The position numbers and the translations under genes are program-made. Positions 56,624 to 63,288 of a stretch of 64,000 bases of DNA are shown one piece after another (the stretch's first letter is position 1; every line of letters starts with the position of its first letter). The notes under the pieces were generated by a model. The model saw only the letters and a program-made list of their open reading frames with translations. It was not told the DNA's origin and searched no databases. The stretch is from an uncultured Bradyrhizobium sp. (lineage in GTDB: Bacteria > Pseudomonadota > Alphaproteobacteria > Rhizobiales > Xanthobacteraceae): positions 124,001 through 188,000 of the forward strand of contig NZ_CAKZHY010000093.1 in the NCBI RefSeq assembly GCF_936928535.1, in the 5' to 3' direction.

Positions 56624-56675
56624 GAGCATGATCTTTTCGGAAAACCGCTTCACACTTTTCCGGAACATGCCCTAG
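56624..56675. repeat. 52-bp dispersed palindromic repeat, copy 2
   Basis: It matches 12041-12092 at 50 of 52 bases. The first repeat-arm GAGCATGATC is conserved, and the other arm has a change (GAACATGCCC). Its end supplies the stop codon of the kinase-USP gene. Confidence 0.9.
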
Positions 56676-58105
56676 CCCCACACCACGCCGGCATCCGGTT
56701 TGGCAATGGCCATCCGCGGCGGCCGCACCACGGTGACGGTGCAGCCCGCTTCCGCCGCCACCTTGGCCGAGACGCTGCCAAGCAGCGTGCGCCTGAATGA
56801 GCTCTGCCGGGCGCCGATGATGACGTGGTCGACCTGGTTGACCTCGGCGAACTCCAGCAGCGCCGTGGCGGGATCGACCGCCTCCAGCACGTGAACCGAC
56901 AGCCGGCTCTCGTCGAGCTTCAGCGGCGTCGCCCAATGCCGCAGCGCCACCAGGCGGTCGATGTGCTTGTTGGAGCCCTGCTCGTCCAGCGTCTTGTCGA
57001 TGGCGATGCGGTTGAGCTTCAGCACATTGACGCAGGCAAGCCGCGCTGACGGCAGCGTCGCCAGAATGCGCTCCGTGGTCACGCGCAGCGCCTCGTTCAG
57101 CTCCGGCTCACCTTCCACAGTGTCGAGCGCGACGGCAAGGATCGGGCTCGAGGCGATCTGCTCGGCGACATCCGACTTCGCTCGCGGCTGCCTGGCATCC
57201 TGGTTGAAACGGCGCCGCCAGGCCACGCTCCAGGGATCGCGCTGCATCCGCTCCGAACGCGCCGTCAGCCTAACCTGATCAGGATGGGCGAGATCGAAGG
57301 CCAGTTGGGACGCGGTCGGGTAGCGCCGGACCGGCTCGATCTCGAGACATCGCAGCACCACCTCCTGGAGCCAGGGCGGATAGTCGGCGCGCAAGCTTCG
57401 CGGCGGATGCGGATCGCGCCACAGCCTCCGGCGCATCGCGCGCAGTGTCTCGCCCTCGCCGAACGGACGTTCGCCGGTCGTGAAGAAGTACAGCAGCACA
57501 CCAAGTGAGAACAGATCGCTGCGTGGATCATCGCGCACGCCGAGGAGGCGCTCCGGCGCCATATAGGGCGCGGTGCCGTAAGGCAGGCGGAATTCTGCCT
57601 GCAACAGATCGGGCAGATGATCGTGTCGCGACAGGCCATAATCGATCAGAACGGCATCGCCGCTCTCGCGGAACATGACGCTGCTCGGCTTGATGTCGTG
57701 ATGGATCACGTTCTGCCGGTGCAGATCGGCGAGCGCAGCCGCGATCCTGGCAACCAGCAGCCGTGCCTCCTCGTACGGCAGCGGCAGATCAGGCAGCCGC
57801 TTGTAGAGCGTGGTTCCCGGAATGCGCTCGATCACGGCATAGGCCTGGCTCGCGAAATCGCCGGTGCCATAGCAGTGCGGCACGTGTGGGCCGGCGAGCC
57901 GCGGCAGGATCATCATCTCCATCTCGAAGGAGACGATCGCGGCGGGGTCCTCGCCTTCCGAGGCGCGTGGGACCTTCATCAGCAGCGGGCCATCGATACC
58001 GGGATGCGTGACGGTCCACAGCGTCGCCATGCCGCCGGCATGGACGCATTCGCCGATCGTGTAGCCGTCGATGACGGCGCCTGACTTGACCAGGGATTTG
58101 GGCAT
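56672..58105 (-). CDS. Ser/Thr kinase-like domain fused to universal stress protein domain
   Basis: A 477-aa fusion. Residues about 14-275 are protein-kinase-like: K44 in LLMKVPRA, HHDIKPSSVMF with D137 as the expected catalytic Asp, DYG instead of DFG at 155-157, and APYMAPERLLG. The metal-ligand Asn of HRDxKPxN is replaced by Ser (S142), so activity may be weak or absent. Residues about 320-470 are a universal stress protein domain (ILAVALDTVEGEPELN; DHVIIGARQ). The stop codon lies inside a dispersed repeat. It follows the phosphoesterase gene by 6 bp. Confidence 0.88.
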   Translation of the reverse strand: MPKSLVKSGAVIDGYTIGECVHAGGMATLWTVTHPGIDGPLLMKVPRASEGEDPAAIVSFEMEMMILPRLAGPHVPHCYGTGDFASQAYAVIERIPGTTLYKRLPDLPLPYEEARLLVARIAAALADLHRQNVIHHDIKPSSVMFRESGDAVLIDYGLSRHDHLPDLLQAEFRLPYGTAPYMAPERLLGVRDDPRSDLFSLGVLLYFFTTGERPFGEGETLRAMRRRLWRDPHPPRSLRADYPPWLQEVVLRCLEIEPVRRYPTASQLAFDLAHPDQVRLTARSERMQRDPWSVAWRRRFNQDARQPRAKSDVAEQIASSPILAVALDTVEGEPELNEALRVTTERILATLPSARLACVNVLKLNRIAIDKTLDEQGSNKHIDRLVALRHWATPLKLDESRLSVHVLEAVDPATALLEFAEVNQVDHVIIGARQSSFRRTLLGSVSAKVAAEAGCTVTVVRPPRMAIAKPDAGVVWG

Positions 58106-58111
58106 CGGCCT

Positions 58112-58852
58112 CTAGCGCCCCTGCGTCAGCCGATCGGCAAGCCAGGGCGGCAGGCCGTTCTCCAAAATCTTGTTTGCCGCGCTCGCGATGTCATAGGGCA
58201 CGCGGCAATAGGTGACCTGGCACGAGACCGTGTCGAACAGCACGAAAGATGCCGAGGGATCGCCGTCGCGCGGCTGGCCAACCGAGCCGAGCACGGCGAG
58301 CCACTGCCGCCCGCGCAGGAGCTGCACCGGCACGTGGGTTTTGGGCACGAAGCTCGTCATCTTCGCTGTCACCGACATCGAATAGAGCGCGGGCCGATGA
58401 ATGTGGCCGCAGAAGGTGACGTGGGCCGGCGTTGCGATCAGGCTCTTGGCGGCATCCGTCGTCGAGCGGACGTAATGCCAGCGTTTGGGGCTAGAAGCTT
58501 CCGCGTGCACGAACAGGCGATCGCTGTCCTCCACCAGCATCGGCAGTTCGGCCAGGAACCGCCGCTGTGCCGCATCGAGCCGCCCTCGGGTCCACTCGAT
58601 CGCGATCTGCGCCTCGTTGTTCATGCTCTCGGTGGTGGTGTTGACGGCTTCGTCATGGTTGCCGCGCACGGCGACGGCGCCACGGGAGACCAAATCCATG
58701 GCGGTGTCGACGACCCATTCCGGGTCGGCGCCATAGCCGACGAAATCACCGAGCAGGATGAACCGCTCCGCGCCCTTTGCGCGGGCTACCTTCAGGCACG
58801 CCTCGAACGCCTGCCGGTTGCCGTGGATATCCGAGAAGACCGCGAGAAGCAC
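58112..58852 (-). CDS. Calcineurin-like metallophosphoesterase
   Basis: A 246-aa phosphoesterase. The di-metal motifs are FSDIHGN (Asp, His), LLGDFVGYGAD (GDxxDxG-like), GNHDEAV and CGHIHRP. Such small proteins include protein phosphatases, cyclic-nucleotide phosphodiesterases and related enzymes; the exact substrate is not evident. It is 6 bp upstream of the kinase-USP gene, so kinase and phosphatase-like functions share an operon. Confidence 0.9.
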   Translation of the reverse strand: MLLAVFSDIHGNRQAFEACLKVARAKGAERFILLGDFVGYGADPEWVVDTAMDLVSRGAVAVRGNHDEAVNTTTESMNNEAQIAIEWTRGRLDAAQRRFLAELPMLVEDSDRLFVHAEASSPKRWHYVRSTTDAAKSLIATPAHVTFCGHIHRPALYSMSVTAKMTSFVPKTHVPVQLLRGRQWLAVLGSVGQPRDGDPSASFVLFDTVSCQVTYCRVPYDIASAANKILENGLPPWLADRLTQGR

Positions 58853-58977: not shown

Positions 58978-59003
58978 CGTCCTTATTGTTCGTCCTTATT
59001 GTT
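58978..59003. repeat. Tandem 13-bp duplication at a stop codon
   Basis: CGTCCTTATTGTT occurs twice in tandem. The stop codon of the leftward gene ending at 58996 falls within the second unit. Confidence 0.75.
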
Positions 59004-59601
59004 CATCCTTGGGCGGCATCCGCGGCGGCGGCAGCGGCGTGAAGACGGCGCCTTGCGCGCCGGCCGGCGGGGCATTGAACTCCCCGGTCGAGGAATCGCC
59101 GCCGCTGGTCTCGAGGATGGCCTTGGGTGTCACATATTCCCGGACCATGTCGATCAGGCTGCCCTCGCCGCCGCCAAAGTCCGCCGCGCGTCCGCCTTGC
59201 GGATGGCCCGCCGCGATCTCGTTCTCGGCCGCATGGGTCTTGTCGGCCAAGGTGTCGCTGTAGGGGACGCGGAAGGCGCGCGGAATACCACTCGGCCGGT
59301 GGTCCTCGTCCAGTTCCTCGACCCACAGATAGATCGAGCCAGGATCGCCCTCCAGCGAATGCGGCTCGACGATCCGCGCCTTGAGCAGCTTGAAGTCGGT
59401 CGGGAGCCGATCACTGCTGGCCCAGCCGAGCAACCCGCGCATTTCGCTGAAGCTCACGATGTAGAAGGCGCTGGTCACGACCACGGCGATCGCCTTCAAC
59501 GACCAGTGCAGCCGTGCATAGACCAGCACGACCAGCAGGAGCGCCCCGATCACCGCATAGGCGACCGACAGCGAGAGGATCACCGTCTGCAAATTAATCA
59601 C
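58996..59601 (-). CDS. Membrane protein of ExbB-type operon, unknown
   Basis: A 201-aa protein with two N-terminal membrane helices (about 8-30 and 36-54). It then has a soluble region of about 145 residues with conserved-looking patches (IYLWVEELDEDHRPSGIPRAFRVPYSD) and a Pro-rich tail. It is the third gene of a leftward operon behind an ExbB-like channel and an anchored DUF2135-like protein, overlapping the latter by 8 bp. No known family. It could be the accessory or load-binding part of the complex (inference). Confidence 0.72.
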   Translation of the reverse strand: MINLQTVILSLSVAYAVIGALLLVVLVYARLHWSLKAIAVVVTSAFYIVSFSEMRGLLGWASSDRLPTDFKLLKARIVEPHSLEGDPGSIYLWVEELDEDHRPSGIPRAFRVPYSDTLADKTHAAENEIAAGHPQGGRAADFGGGEGSLIDMVREYVTPKAILETSGGDSSTGEFNAPPAGAQGAVFTPLPPPRMPPKDEQ

Positions 59602-60280
59602 GGCGGATCCTCTTCGCGTTCCGGCTCACACCGGTGCTCGGGTCGAGATCGGCCCCGTTGCGCCAGGTGCTGCGAAAAGTCTCCATCAGCGATTTCGGCC
59701 GTTGGCTCACATCGATGACCTTGCCCTCGGCGTCGAGCCGGAACCGCACCGCGGTCTTCTCGTCGCCGGTGTGGTCGAGCGTGAACTTGTTGTCGAAGAC
59801 CACCTGAGCGGTGGGATTGAGCTTTTGCACCTTCACATTGGCGGTCACCGGCTCGCCCGTCGTGGCGACGAAATGCGAGACATTCACCGTGTATTCGCCG
59901 GGGACGATGCCCCGCAGCGTGACGATCTCCTCGCGGATGGGCGAGGCGATCTTCTTGCCGTTGACCATGATGAAGTCATTGGCCCCGCCGCGGTCGTCAC
60001 GATCGAGGGTGAGGAAGCCGGCCTCGCGATGGCGATACCAGGCGATGTTGCCGGCGGGATCCTGCACGAACAGGTCGAGATCGTCGGGGTGATTGTCCGG
60101 CCAGTCCAGTGTGATCATGAACTCGGCCTTGGAGTCGATCTTGCCCTCCTTGGCATCGGGCGAAACCGCGAGCAGCGCGAGGAAGAACAGGAAGGCGACC
60201 ACCTGGAGCGCCTTGAACAGCATCACGCCCAGGGGATCGAACGGCTCCTCGCGCGGATAGAGGCCGAAATCATCCATCAT
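59594..60280 (-). CDS. Single-span protein with DUF2135/YfaP-like periplasmic domain
   Basis: A 228-aa protein. A short cytosolic N-terminus containing REEPFDPLG leads into one membrane helix (about 18-40), an ExbD/TolR-like layout with an Asp (D15) next to the helix. The periplasmic part has DDLDLFVQDPAG and LTLDRDDRGG, resembling DUF2135/YfaP domains, then a beta-rich stretch. It overlaps the ExbB-like gene by 4 bases and the next gene by 8. I infer it is the periplasmic partner of the channel. Confidence 0.72.
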   Translation of the reverse strand: MMDDFGLYPREEPFDPLGVMLFKALQVVAFLFFLALLAVSPDAKEGKIDSKAEFMITLDWPDNHPDDLDLFVQDPAGNIAWYRHREAGFLTLDRDDRGGANDFIMVNGKKIASPIREEIVTLRGIVPGEYTVNVSHFVATTGEPVTANVKVQKLNPTAQVVFDNKFTLDHTGDEKTAVRFRLDAEGKVIDVSQRPKSLMETFRSTWRNGADLDPSTGVSRNAKRIRRD

Positions 60281-61062
60281 GACGGCATTCCGGCGCCCTT
60301 GATGTCAGATCCCTTGCGCTCGAGAACCGGCGTCACATAGGTCTCGGTCAGCACCACCGCGTCCGAGAATACCCGCTGGGTCGCGGCATCGAGCATGTAG
60401 TACTGGATGCGGACCAGGATGGAGCCGACGAGGCCCGCGAGCGTCGTGTACATGGCAACCGCCATGCCGTCGCTCATCAGCCCCATCGAGGAGCGCATCG
60501 CGACCTTGTCGGCGGCATCCAGCCCCGCAATCGGCGCCAGCATGATGATGAAGCCGATGATGGTGCCGAGCAGGCCGAGCTTCATCAGCGTGTCGGAGAC
60601 GAAGGCACCAAAACCGTTGGAGCCGCGCAGTCGGTCGGCAAGCGTCCGCAGCAGCAGCGTCTGGTCGACCGGACGGTAATCCTGCGCTGCAGCTTTCGTC
60701 ACCAGGCTTTCGATGTGATCGCGCACCAGCCCGCGCGGCAGCGCGGTGGCGCGCGCATCGAGCATTTTGCCGCCATCAGGCGCTGCGAGCACCGCGCGGC
60801 AACGCCGTGCGGCCGCGCCTTCCCGGGCAATCGCCCGCGTGCGCAGGAAGCAATGGCCGCAGGTGACGAGATAGAGCGCCGCGATCACGCTCGAGATGTA
60901 GGTCCGGTCCGAGGTCAGCATCAGATGGATCAGGCCGAACCGCCACAGCAGCACGACCGCGAAGATCGACAGCCCGGTGAAGATCATCCAGAACAGCAGC
61001 GCGCTACGCTCGGATGGGTCGGCAGTCGAGCCCGCGATCGGTCCAATCGTCATCGAACTCAT
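60277..61062 (-). CDS. MotA/TolQ/ExbB-family proton channel protein
   Basis: A 261-aa membrane protein. Four hydrophobic segments are seen, the third and fourth (LGLLGTIIGFIIMLAPIAGL; MAVAMYTTLAGLVGSILV) being typical of the MotA/ExbB family that lines the proton path. The start at 61062 has GGGAG at about 9 bp; the longer track start at 61107 is less likely. It is the first gene of a three-gene operon with an ExbD-like and a membrane protein. Not a normal TonB or flagellar locus, since no TonB or OmpA-type gene is nearby. Confidence 0.85.
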   Translation of the reverse strand: MSSMTIGPIAGSTADPSERSALLFWMIFTGLSIFAVVLLWRFGLIHLMLTSDRTYISSVIAALYLVTCGHCFLRTRAIAREGAAARRCRAVLAAPDGGKMLDARATALPRGLVRDHIESLVTKAAAQDYRPVDQTLLLRTLADRLRGSNGFGAFVSDTLMKLGLLGTIIGFIIMLAPIAGLDAADKVAMRSSMGLMSDGMAVAMYTTLAGLVGSILVRIQYYMLDAATQRVFSDAVVLTETYVTPVLERKGSDIKGAGMPS

Positions 61063-61259: not shown

Positions 61260-62630
61260 ATGCGCCTCGTGCTTCAGCTTGTCGCCCGCCTACTTCTCAT
61301 CGTTGCGCTTTGCCTGGGCGCGGCAACCATATGGGCCACGTTCGATGCCTATCGCAGCGTCGACCGCGCAACGGCGGCCTCCGCGCAGCGGGTCGCGCAG
61401 GCGCTTCAGGGCCTGTACTGGCATGAACTGTTGCTGCGCAGCAGCAGGATGCGCGAGCATCTCGTGCCGGTTCCGGAATGGCGCACGCTGGAGACGGTGA
61501 AGCTGATTGCGCCCGGTGTCTGCGTCGAGTTCCAGCCCGCCACCGCATTCGAGAAGCCGCTCTGCGGCCAGAGCCAAGGGATCGGCCGGACCCCGCCGCG
61601 CTGGTTCGCCGCCATCGTTCCGACCTTCCTCGGCAGCCATGCCGAGGCGGTGCGCCCCATCAGCCCGCGGGCCGCGGCCGCCGGCACGGTGGTCGCGACG
61701 CCGGACGAAGCCGCCTCCATCTCGCTCGCCTGGGAGTATATCCTCAACGTAACAGACGTTGCGCTGCTGATGGCAGCGGCAATCGCGCTGCTCGCATCGC
61801 TTGCGATCGCGCACACGCTGGCGCCGGCACGCGCCATCGTGACCGCCCTGCAACGCATGGCGCGCGGCCAGTATCGCACCAGGCTGCCGCGCTTCCGCTC
61901 CATGGAGCTGGCGATGATCGGGACCGCCGTCGATGCGCTCGGCAGCCGGCTGGAAGAGGCCACCGAACAGCGCGCCGCGCTGACGCGGCGCCTGATCGAG
62001 ATCCGCGACGACGAGCGACGCGCGCTCGCGCGCGAACTGCATGACGAGTTCGGACAAAATCTCTCCGCCATCCTGGCGTTCGCCAACACGATCGAGATGG
62101 CAAGTGCGAAGGAGCAAAAAGAGATCGGTATCGCGCAGGATGCGCGCATGATCTCGCAGGCCACGCACCAACTGATGGCCTCGCTCCGCGATGCGCTGAA
62201 GCGCTTGCGTAATCCGCTGCCCGAGGAACTCGGGCTGGAGGCAAGCCTCGTCAACCTCGTCGACAGCTGGCGCTCACAGAGCGCGACGCAGCCGACGATC
62301 CAGCTCGACCTCAAGGGCGATCTCACCGACATCAGCGGCCCGGCCGCGACCACTGCTTATCGCGTCGCCCAGGAATGCCTGACCAACGCGCTGCGCCACG
62401 GTGCTGCGCGCGAGATCTCGTTGCACGTCGAACGTTGCGCGGGCGAGGACAATGCGCTGCTGATCCGCGTCGAGGACGATGGCGGCGGCGATGCGGCGCG
62501 GGTCGAGCGCTCCGCCGGCTTCGGCCTCACCGGCATCCGCGAGCGCGTCGCGGCGGCCGGCGGCTCGCTCTCGATCCTGCCTGCAAGGCGCGGGCTCAGC
62601 GTCGCTGCGACGATCCCGCTCGCCGCGTGA
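61260..62630 (+). CDS. Sensor histidine kinase, NarX/DegS type
   Basis: A 456-aa kinase. One N-terminal helix, an extracytoplasmic region (about 35-160), a second helix (about 165-190), a HAMP-like linker, and a HisKA_3 domain with H261 in ARELHDEFGQNLSAILAFAN. The ATPase domain is about 350-455 (EDDGGGD, GFGLTGIRERV). It precedes a NarL-type regulator by 7 bp, so it is its partner. Signal unknown. Confidence 0.93.
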   Translation: MRLVLQLVARLLLIVALCLGAATIWATFDAYRSVDRATAASAQRVAQALQGLYWHELLLRSSRMREHLVPVPEWRTLETVKLIAPGVCVEFQPATAFEKPLCGQSQGIGRTPPRWFAAIVPTFLGSHAEAVRPISPRAAAAGTVVATPDEAASISLAWEYILNVTDVALLMAAAIALLASLAIAHTLAPARAIVTALQRMARGQYRTRLPRFRSMELAMIGTAVDALGSRLEEATEQRAALTRRLIEIRDDERRALARELHDEFGQNLSAILAFANTIEMASAKEQKEIGIAQDARMISQATHQLMASLRDALKRLRNPLPEELGLEASLVNLVDSWRSQSATQPTIQLDLKGDLTDISGPAATTAYRVAQECLTNALRHGAAREISLHVERCAGEDNALLIRVEDDGGGDAARVERSAGFGLTGIRERVAAAGGSLSILPARRGLSVAATIPLAA

Positions 62631-62637
62631 GGCCGTC

Positions 62638-63288
62638 ATGAGCGATGTCGCGGCAACAGGCATCTCCGTACTCCTGGTCGACGACCATCCGATCGTCCGC
62701 CAGGGCTACCGGCGCGTGCTGGAAAGCCAGGGCGATCTCCATGTCGTGGCGGAAGCCGACAACGCCGCGGATGCCTACGGCGCCTTCAAAATTCATGACC
62801 CCGATGTCGTTGTGATGGACATCTCGATGCCGGGCGCCTCAGGGCTGGAGGCGATCCGCAACATCCGCGCGCGCAATCCGCGGGCCCGCATCCTCGTCTT
62901 CACCATGCACAACGAGGCCGTGCTGGTGAAAGCGGCCTTCAATGCCGGCGCTTCCGGCTTCGTCACCAAGAGCAGCGCGCCTTTCACGGTCGTCAACGCG
63001 ATCCGAAGCGTCGCGCGCGGTGAGCGCGCCATGAGCGACGACATCGCACATGTGCTGGCCGAGGACAGCCTGTCGGCGGGTTCAGTGCTGGATCAACTCG
63101 GCGAGCGCGAGATCGAAATTCTGCGCCAGTTCGCCGGCGGCGCCACGACCGAGCAGATCGCGGCGCAGCTCAATCTCAGCGTCAAGACGGTCCAGAACTA
63201 CCACTATCTGATCAAGACCAAGACCGGCGCGCGCACGGACGCGCAACTGGTGCGGCTGGCGGCGAGTTGCGGGCTAACGCGGATTTAG
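62638..63288 (+). CDS. NarL/FixJ-type response regulator
   Basis: A 216-aa regulator. Receiver domain with D15-D16 and phosphorylation site D61 (VVVMDISMPG), followed by a LuxR-type helix-turn-helix (about 150-210, GATTEQIAAQLNLSVKTVQNYH). It forms an operon with the preceding kinase. The start at 62638 is used; the track start at 62479 lies inside the kinase gene. Confidence 0.94.
   Translation: MSDVAATGISVLLVDDHPIVRQGYRRVLESQGDLHVVAEADNAADAYGAFKIHDPDVVVMDISMPGASGLEAIRNIRARNPRARILVFTMHNEAVLVKAAFNAGASGFVTKSSAPFTVVNAIRSVARGERAMSDDIAHVLAEDSLSAGSVLDQLGEREIEILRQFAGGATTEQIAAQLNLSVKTVQNYHYLIKTKTGARTDAQLVRLAASCGLTRI

Follow-up and report, generated by a model that had tools for sequence, protein, structure and literature searches.

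A conserved three-gene MotA/TolQ/ExbB-type set in Alphaproteobacteria and phages, associated with PQQ-dependent alcohol oxidation, as a possible new branch of the 5 : 2 motors

In this study, we asked whether three overlapping genes of a Bradyrhizobium genome encode a proton-driven complex distinct from the named ones and, if so, which task such a complex might serve. To our knowledge, only a few kinds of proton-driven 5 : 2 motors have been recognized, each with a task of its own. The window, that is the whole 64 000-nucleotide stretch of DNA analysed here, carries the operon P0001–P0002–P0003 (hereafter the triad) on its minus strand, and in a previous sequence-only reading it had been proposed that this channel set uses proton flow for a different task. 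All three open reading frames read from the sequence exist, their overlaps of 4 and 8 bp were confirmed, and a literature search found no paper on the three-gene set.

P0001 (positions 60277–61062, minus strand; 261 amino acids) has four hydrophobic spans and scores above the curated cut-off of the Pfam family MotA_ExbB (PF01618; 35.1 bits vs 22.9, E 1.3e-8), which is in agreement with its earlier description as a MotA/TolQ/ExbB-like channel protein. When compared with solved chains, the profile of its family matches TolQ (E 4e-4), MotA, ExbB, PomA and ZorA. Of the two pore threonines in the last two spans, T167 is near-invariant and T207 invariant or near-invariant in the alignments, and both are retained in the window's own clade; the phage proteins have a short loop and keep the four spans. 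These sequence comparisons establish P0001 as a member of the MotA/TolQ/ExbB superfamily. Its score against the TolQ model TIGR02796 is 12 bits, below the curated cut-off of 221, and its best ZorA score is 16.4 bits, far below the NCBIfam cut-off of 500. With scores under the curated cut-offs, the named Tol, Ton, Mot and Zorya types were rejected, as the sequence-only reading had supposed for Tol, Ton and Zorya. A separate true TolQ is encoded elsewhere in the window genome, together with further MotA_ExbB proteins.

The second protein, P0002 (59594–60280, minus strand; 228 amino acids), has one predicted transmembrane helix (residues 16–38) followed by a periplasmic domain, which AlphaFold2, run on the operon proteins as single chains, predicts as a confident beta-sandwich (mean pLDDT 84.5; beta domain mostly >90). 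The single span agrees with what had been read from the sequence; the DUF2135 likeness claimed at the same time turned out to be weak, with a match to this family in five of 24 relatives (best E 0.0018) and none of the window protein itself to PF09906. A fold search gave no PDB match at E<=0.001 and one match to a viral model, an uncharacterized protein (E 1e-5). The alignments show a conserved signature, WxD..DxD...LDRDD, and, in relatives, a PFxDLL motif like that of ExbD and TolR. The aspartate of this motif, Asp19, occupies a position like that of ExbD D25 and is found in 104 of the 112 distinct P0002 sequences. The eight exceptions are the window clade (seven rows with Val19 and Lys23) and one further locus (L042, Ala19), and each of them carries an acidic residue, Asp or Glu, at position 15, one helical turn earlier. 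In the window protein, position 19 is Val and the aspartate lies four residues before it (D15), so that the 'Asp before the helix' of the sequence-only reading is real but does not stand at the ExbD-D25-like position on which the proton-channel argument relied.

The loss of Asp19 in the window clade is the chief reason not to take for granted that the window genome encodes a working proton channel. It could be taken to mean that the Bradyrhizobium complex is a degenerate, non-conducting relative whose channel aspartate has been replaced by Val, and the presence of Val19 and Lys23 throughout the clade fits this view; however, P0002 is 80–99% conserved across the genus, an acid is kept at position 15 and the pore threonines are kept as well, which makes degeneration highly improbable. 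The clade with the displaced aspartate may offer a natural test of ion binding in such motors.

P0003 (58996–59601, minus strand; 201 amino acids) is the conserved third gene product. As had been claimed, it has two transmembrane helices (4–28 and 33–57), which AlphaFold2 predicts to be followed by a small periplasmic domain of beta-beta-beta-alpha type and a disordered tail; a C-terminal P-x-K tail is conserved in the alignment. Pfam, NCBIfam and PADLOC gave no family match, the family searches found no TonB/TolA C-terminal domain, the alignment shows no conserved His in the spans and a fold search found no PDB match at E<=0.001. P0003 resembles no known transducer, which counts against reading the set as a motor. 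In two distant triads (L157 and L158), the third gene is apparently present as two tandem copies beside a PQQ dehydrogenase.

P0002 relatives were found in 54 of 101 related genomes searched, including 50 of 61 of the genus (the window's own counted). Of 385 Alphaproteobacteria, 57 have a relative, as do at least two genomes that do not belong to this class. Wherever loci were read, in Alphaproteobacteria and a few other Proteobacteria, the order P0001–P0002–P0003 is kept. Since this order recurs in dozens of divergent genomes and in viral contigs, the triad is not a chance arrangement, and the expectation of a conserved order in relatives was borne out. A tree of P0002 groups 28 chromosomal rows in one clade (support 99/94) and separates them from a second bacterial clade; viral sequences surround the first chromosomal clade, and those of 16-3-type phages lie near the second bacterial clade. 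Three side observations were made on these loci: one in a record titled Frankia sp. RB7 (L075) is 98% identical to the Bradyrhizobium one, which suggests a misnamed or contaminated genome; one genome (G464; L179, L181) has P0002 in several copies, of which two contain an internal stop; and in several families (L185–L190, L166, L167) the triad is followed by a conserved lipoprotein-like gene that belongs to no Pfam family.

The neighbouring genes had been proposed to control the triad, and domain matches agree with the identities given to them. Divergent from the operon, on the plus strand, lie a UhpB/NarX-like histidine kinase (61260–62630) and a NarL/GacA-type response regulator (62638–63288). 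Close relatives of both adjoin the triad at two other loci (L168 and L174), and more distant relatives of the pair lie near the triad at a distant PQQ-dehydrogenase locus (L167); judged from this recurrence, the two-component system is a fair candidate for a triad regulator. Downstream, on the minus strand, follow a calcineurin-like phosphoesterase (58112–58852; Metallophos_2, E 4.5e-19) and a Ser/Thr kinase–universal stress protein fusion (56672–58105; Pkinase and Usp domains), both at most candidate parts of the system. All 66 long Bradyrhizobium loci have these two genes close to the triad, and no phosphoesterase was found near it in the loci of other families compared. Synteny was thus found at the genus level only, and control by the kinase–phosphoesterase pair was set aside as unsupported beyond it. 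The kinase fusion also matches PADLOC kinase models of PD-T4-6 (E 1e-52), probably through general kinase similarity.

The link to PQQ and the phage-borne copies are additions beyond the sequence-only reading. In a sample of 385 Alphaproteobacteria, in which genomes within a family are not independent, a PQQ alcohol dehydrogenase (TIGR03075, E<=1e-100) was present in 27 of 31 genomes with a close triad vs 73 of 354 others (Fisher p 1e-13, with a threshold chosen after the table was seen); counted by family, the enzyme accompanies the close triad in 13 of 14. This threshold was chosen because weaker TIGR03075 matches include ordinary beta-propellers, which also occur in control genomes. Three families (f79, f71 and f60) show the contrast internally, some of their genomes having triad and dehydrogenase and some neither. 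Dehydrogenases or PQQ-associated genes adjoin the triad in nine families (f60, f91, f69, f71, f203, f166, f119, f65 and f38), and NCBIfam names among the neighbours of distant triads include TIGR03075, PqqE, PqqB, TIGR03866, TIGR03863 and the PedC-type ABC family TIGR03861. One genome (G498) has the gene order pqqC, pqqE, triad, and in a congener of the window (G012) the triad is part of a xoxF cluster that also encodes a lut-like ABC transporter. The linked dehydrogenases fall into several divergent clades, and the idea of one specific dehydrogenase type as triad partner was rejected on this ground. There are exceptions: one genome (G415) has triads without a dehydrogenase at the threshold and without pqqC, three further triad genomes (G281, G255 and G230, the last with pqqC) fall below the dehydrogenase threshold, and the second bacterial triad clade has no PQQ neighbours except at the outlying loci L157 and L158. 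Within the window itself no PQQ gene lies near the triad; the xoxF cluster of this genome is on another contig (L194, G000:C95:136000-155900), and it also encodes a lanmodulin-like EF-hand protein and the binding protein of an ABC transporter. Taken as a genomic association rather than a demonstrated function, the PQQ link is strong in these genome comparisons.

In f60 and f91, genomes with the triad encode a dehydrogenase but no pqqC, and therefore may import PQQ. Together with the position of the congener's triad in a xoxF/ABC transporter cluster, the known TonB-dependent uptake of lanthanides (PMC7391723) and a large TonB-receptor-like ORF, recognized by eye only, that adjoins the triad in L167, this would be consistent with a dedicated, TonB-like energizer of lanthanide, calcium or PQQ uptake across the outer membrane with P0003 as transducer, a narrower form of the reading we prefer. 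We consider it unlikely in this form, as P0003 has neither the C-terminal domain of TonB nor a conserved transmembrane His as in TonB and TolA, and the periplasmic parts seem too short to span the distance to the outer membrane.

The triad is also carried by phages. An IMG/VR scan found at least 91 contigs encoding P0002 relatives, and all three genes were in order at 73 of 80 fetched loci; a terminase is encoded on 13 of 45 contigs examined, including several of 156–607 kb. Among 50 697 phage records, 27 have a P0002 match, all of them Rhizobium or Sinorhizobium phages, and all eight phage loci examined contain all three genes, including phage 16-3, where they are p038, p040 and p042. In the records these genes are hypothetical, unnamed or, once, doubtfully annotated through an endonuclease overlap. 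PHROGs has no family for P0001 or P0003, and P0002 weakly matches part of phrog_1735 and nothing else. The triad is surrounded by replication genes in the large myovirus-type phages, and in two 16-3-type phages a lysozyme gene is 4–5 kb away; a role as lysis cassette was rejected for these reasons. No PQQ link was seen in the phage flanks viewed. Genes for ClpS, ClpP, Hsp20, DnaK or iron–sulfur assembly are often nearby (L234–L313, e.g. L251, L254 and L270), with ClpS directly downstream of the triad in about ten distinct groups, and 16-3-type Rhizobium phages encode a trypsin-like protease with a signal-like N terminus directly upstream (L314:5247-6146; also L319 and L321).

Carriage by phages bears on two further readings. 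The chaperone and protease genes, in several phage groups, might point to a Tol-like motor of general envelope maintenance under stress, by which phages keep infected cells intact and for which the PQQ link would reflect the envelope load of periplasmic oxidation. This would account for chromosomal and phage copies alike; however, a TolQ is already present in the genome, the chromosomal clade is closely associated with PQQ dehydrogenases and the genes beside the phage copies belong to the general accessory repertoire of phages, so that we regard this reading as doubtful, though it deserves to be kept in mind. Carriage by phages and the weak ZorA similarity could also suggest a membrane complex for phage–host or phage–phage conflict, such as a remote relative of Zorya or a superinfection-exclusion device. 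Given how far the ZorA score falls short, that no ZorC, ZorD or ZorE genes were seen among the triad neighbours examined, that a ZorB-type domain is missing and that chromosomal copies lie in metabolic clusters, such a device seems very improbable.

We therefore return to the motor reading. A distinct set of conserved order that fits no named Tol, Ton or Zorya type could plausibly be a motor that serves another task; to this extent the original proposal stands, while the pore aspartate it relied upon is displaced in the window clade. A motor function of the set is suggested by P0001, by the span and aspartate layout of most P0002 relatives and by the gene order; assembly, proton flow and substrate are likewise inferred. 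On balance, we favour a new branch of the 5 : 2 motor superfamily that would energize a step in the periplasm or at the outer membrane; on chromosomes, this step would belong to PQQ-dependent alcohol oxidation. Five P0001 subunits would form a pentameric ring around an axle of two P0002 helices, and ions passing the conserved threonines would turn or push the beta-sandwich head of P0002 in the periplasm, with P0003 as a periplasmic partner that may anchor the motor or transmit force. The chromosomal task might be cofactor or metal supply, or dehydrogenase assembly. More tentatively, and as a possibility rather than an expectation, the triad could be a third class of proton-driven periplasmic energizer besides Ton and Tol, serving PQQ- or lanthanide-dependent alcohol oxidation on chromosomes, carried as an intact module by tailed and jumbo phages and with its ion-binding aspartate moved by one helical turn in one lineage. 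A tie to PQQ-dependent alcohol oxidation would point to an unrecognized energy-requiring step there, including lanthanide-dependent methanol oxidation, and entire motor modules carried by phages would add a new class to the envelope genes known from phages.

Some elements of the triad recur in known systems. Like TolQ–TolR–TolA and ExbB–ExbD–TonB, it comprises three inner-membrane proteins, one of them a MotA_ExbB-type subunit with the two pore threonines, and most P0002 members share with ExbD and TolR the PFxD motif where the single span starts. P0001 differs from TolQ and ExbB in its four spans and short cytoplasmic loop, besides its low tolQ score; the periplasmic part of P0002, a beta-sandwich, is unlike that of TolR and ExbD; and P0003, with two spans and without a TonB/TolA domain or His, is unlike TonB and TolA. 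The four-span layout of P0001 and a single-span partner with a periplasmic domain recall the MotA–MotB flagellar stator, whereas the triad has no OmpA-type peptidoglycan-binding domain and no flagellar context. With ZorA–ZorB of Zorya it shares the MotA/ExbB fold of P0001, but not the ZorA tail, the ZorB domain, ZorC/D/E or scores near the NCBIfam cut-offs. In Methylomicrobium, two MotA/TolQ/ExbB genes, at most candidate relatives of the triad, are reported to be down-regulated under lanthanum vs calcium (PMC6277846). The congener's triad, in its xoxF cluster alongside a lut-like ABC transporter, resembles in setting the lut lanthanide-transport cluster of Methylorubrum, in whose description no ExbB/MotA/TolQ gene is named (PMC7391723). 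vWA force transducers beside TolQR-like motors have been described as a motor-partner family found by gene neighbourhood (PMC12204202); the triad would likewise present a new motor-partner family discovered in this way, in which a weakly DUF2135-like beta-sandwich protein and a two-span protein stand in place of the vWA domain.
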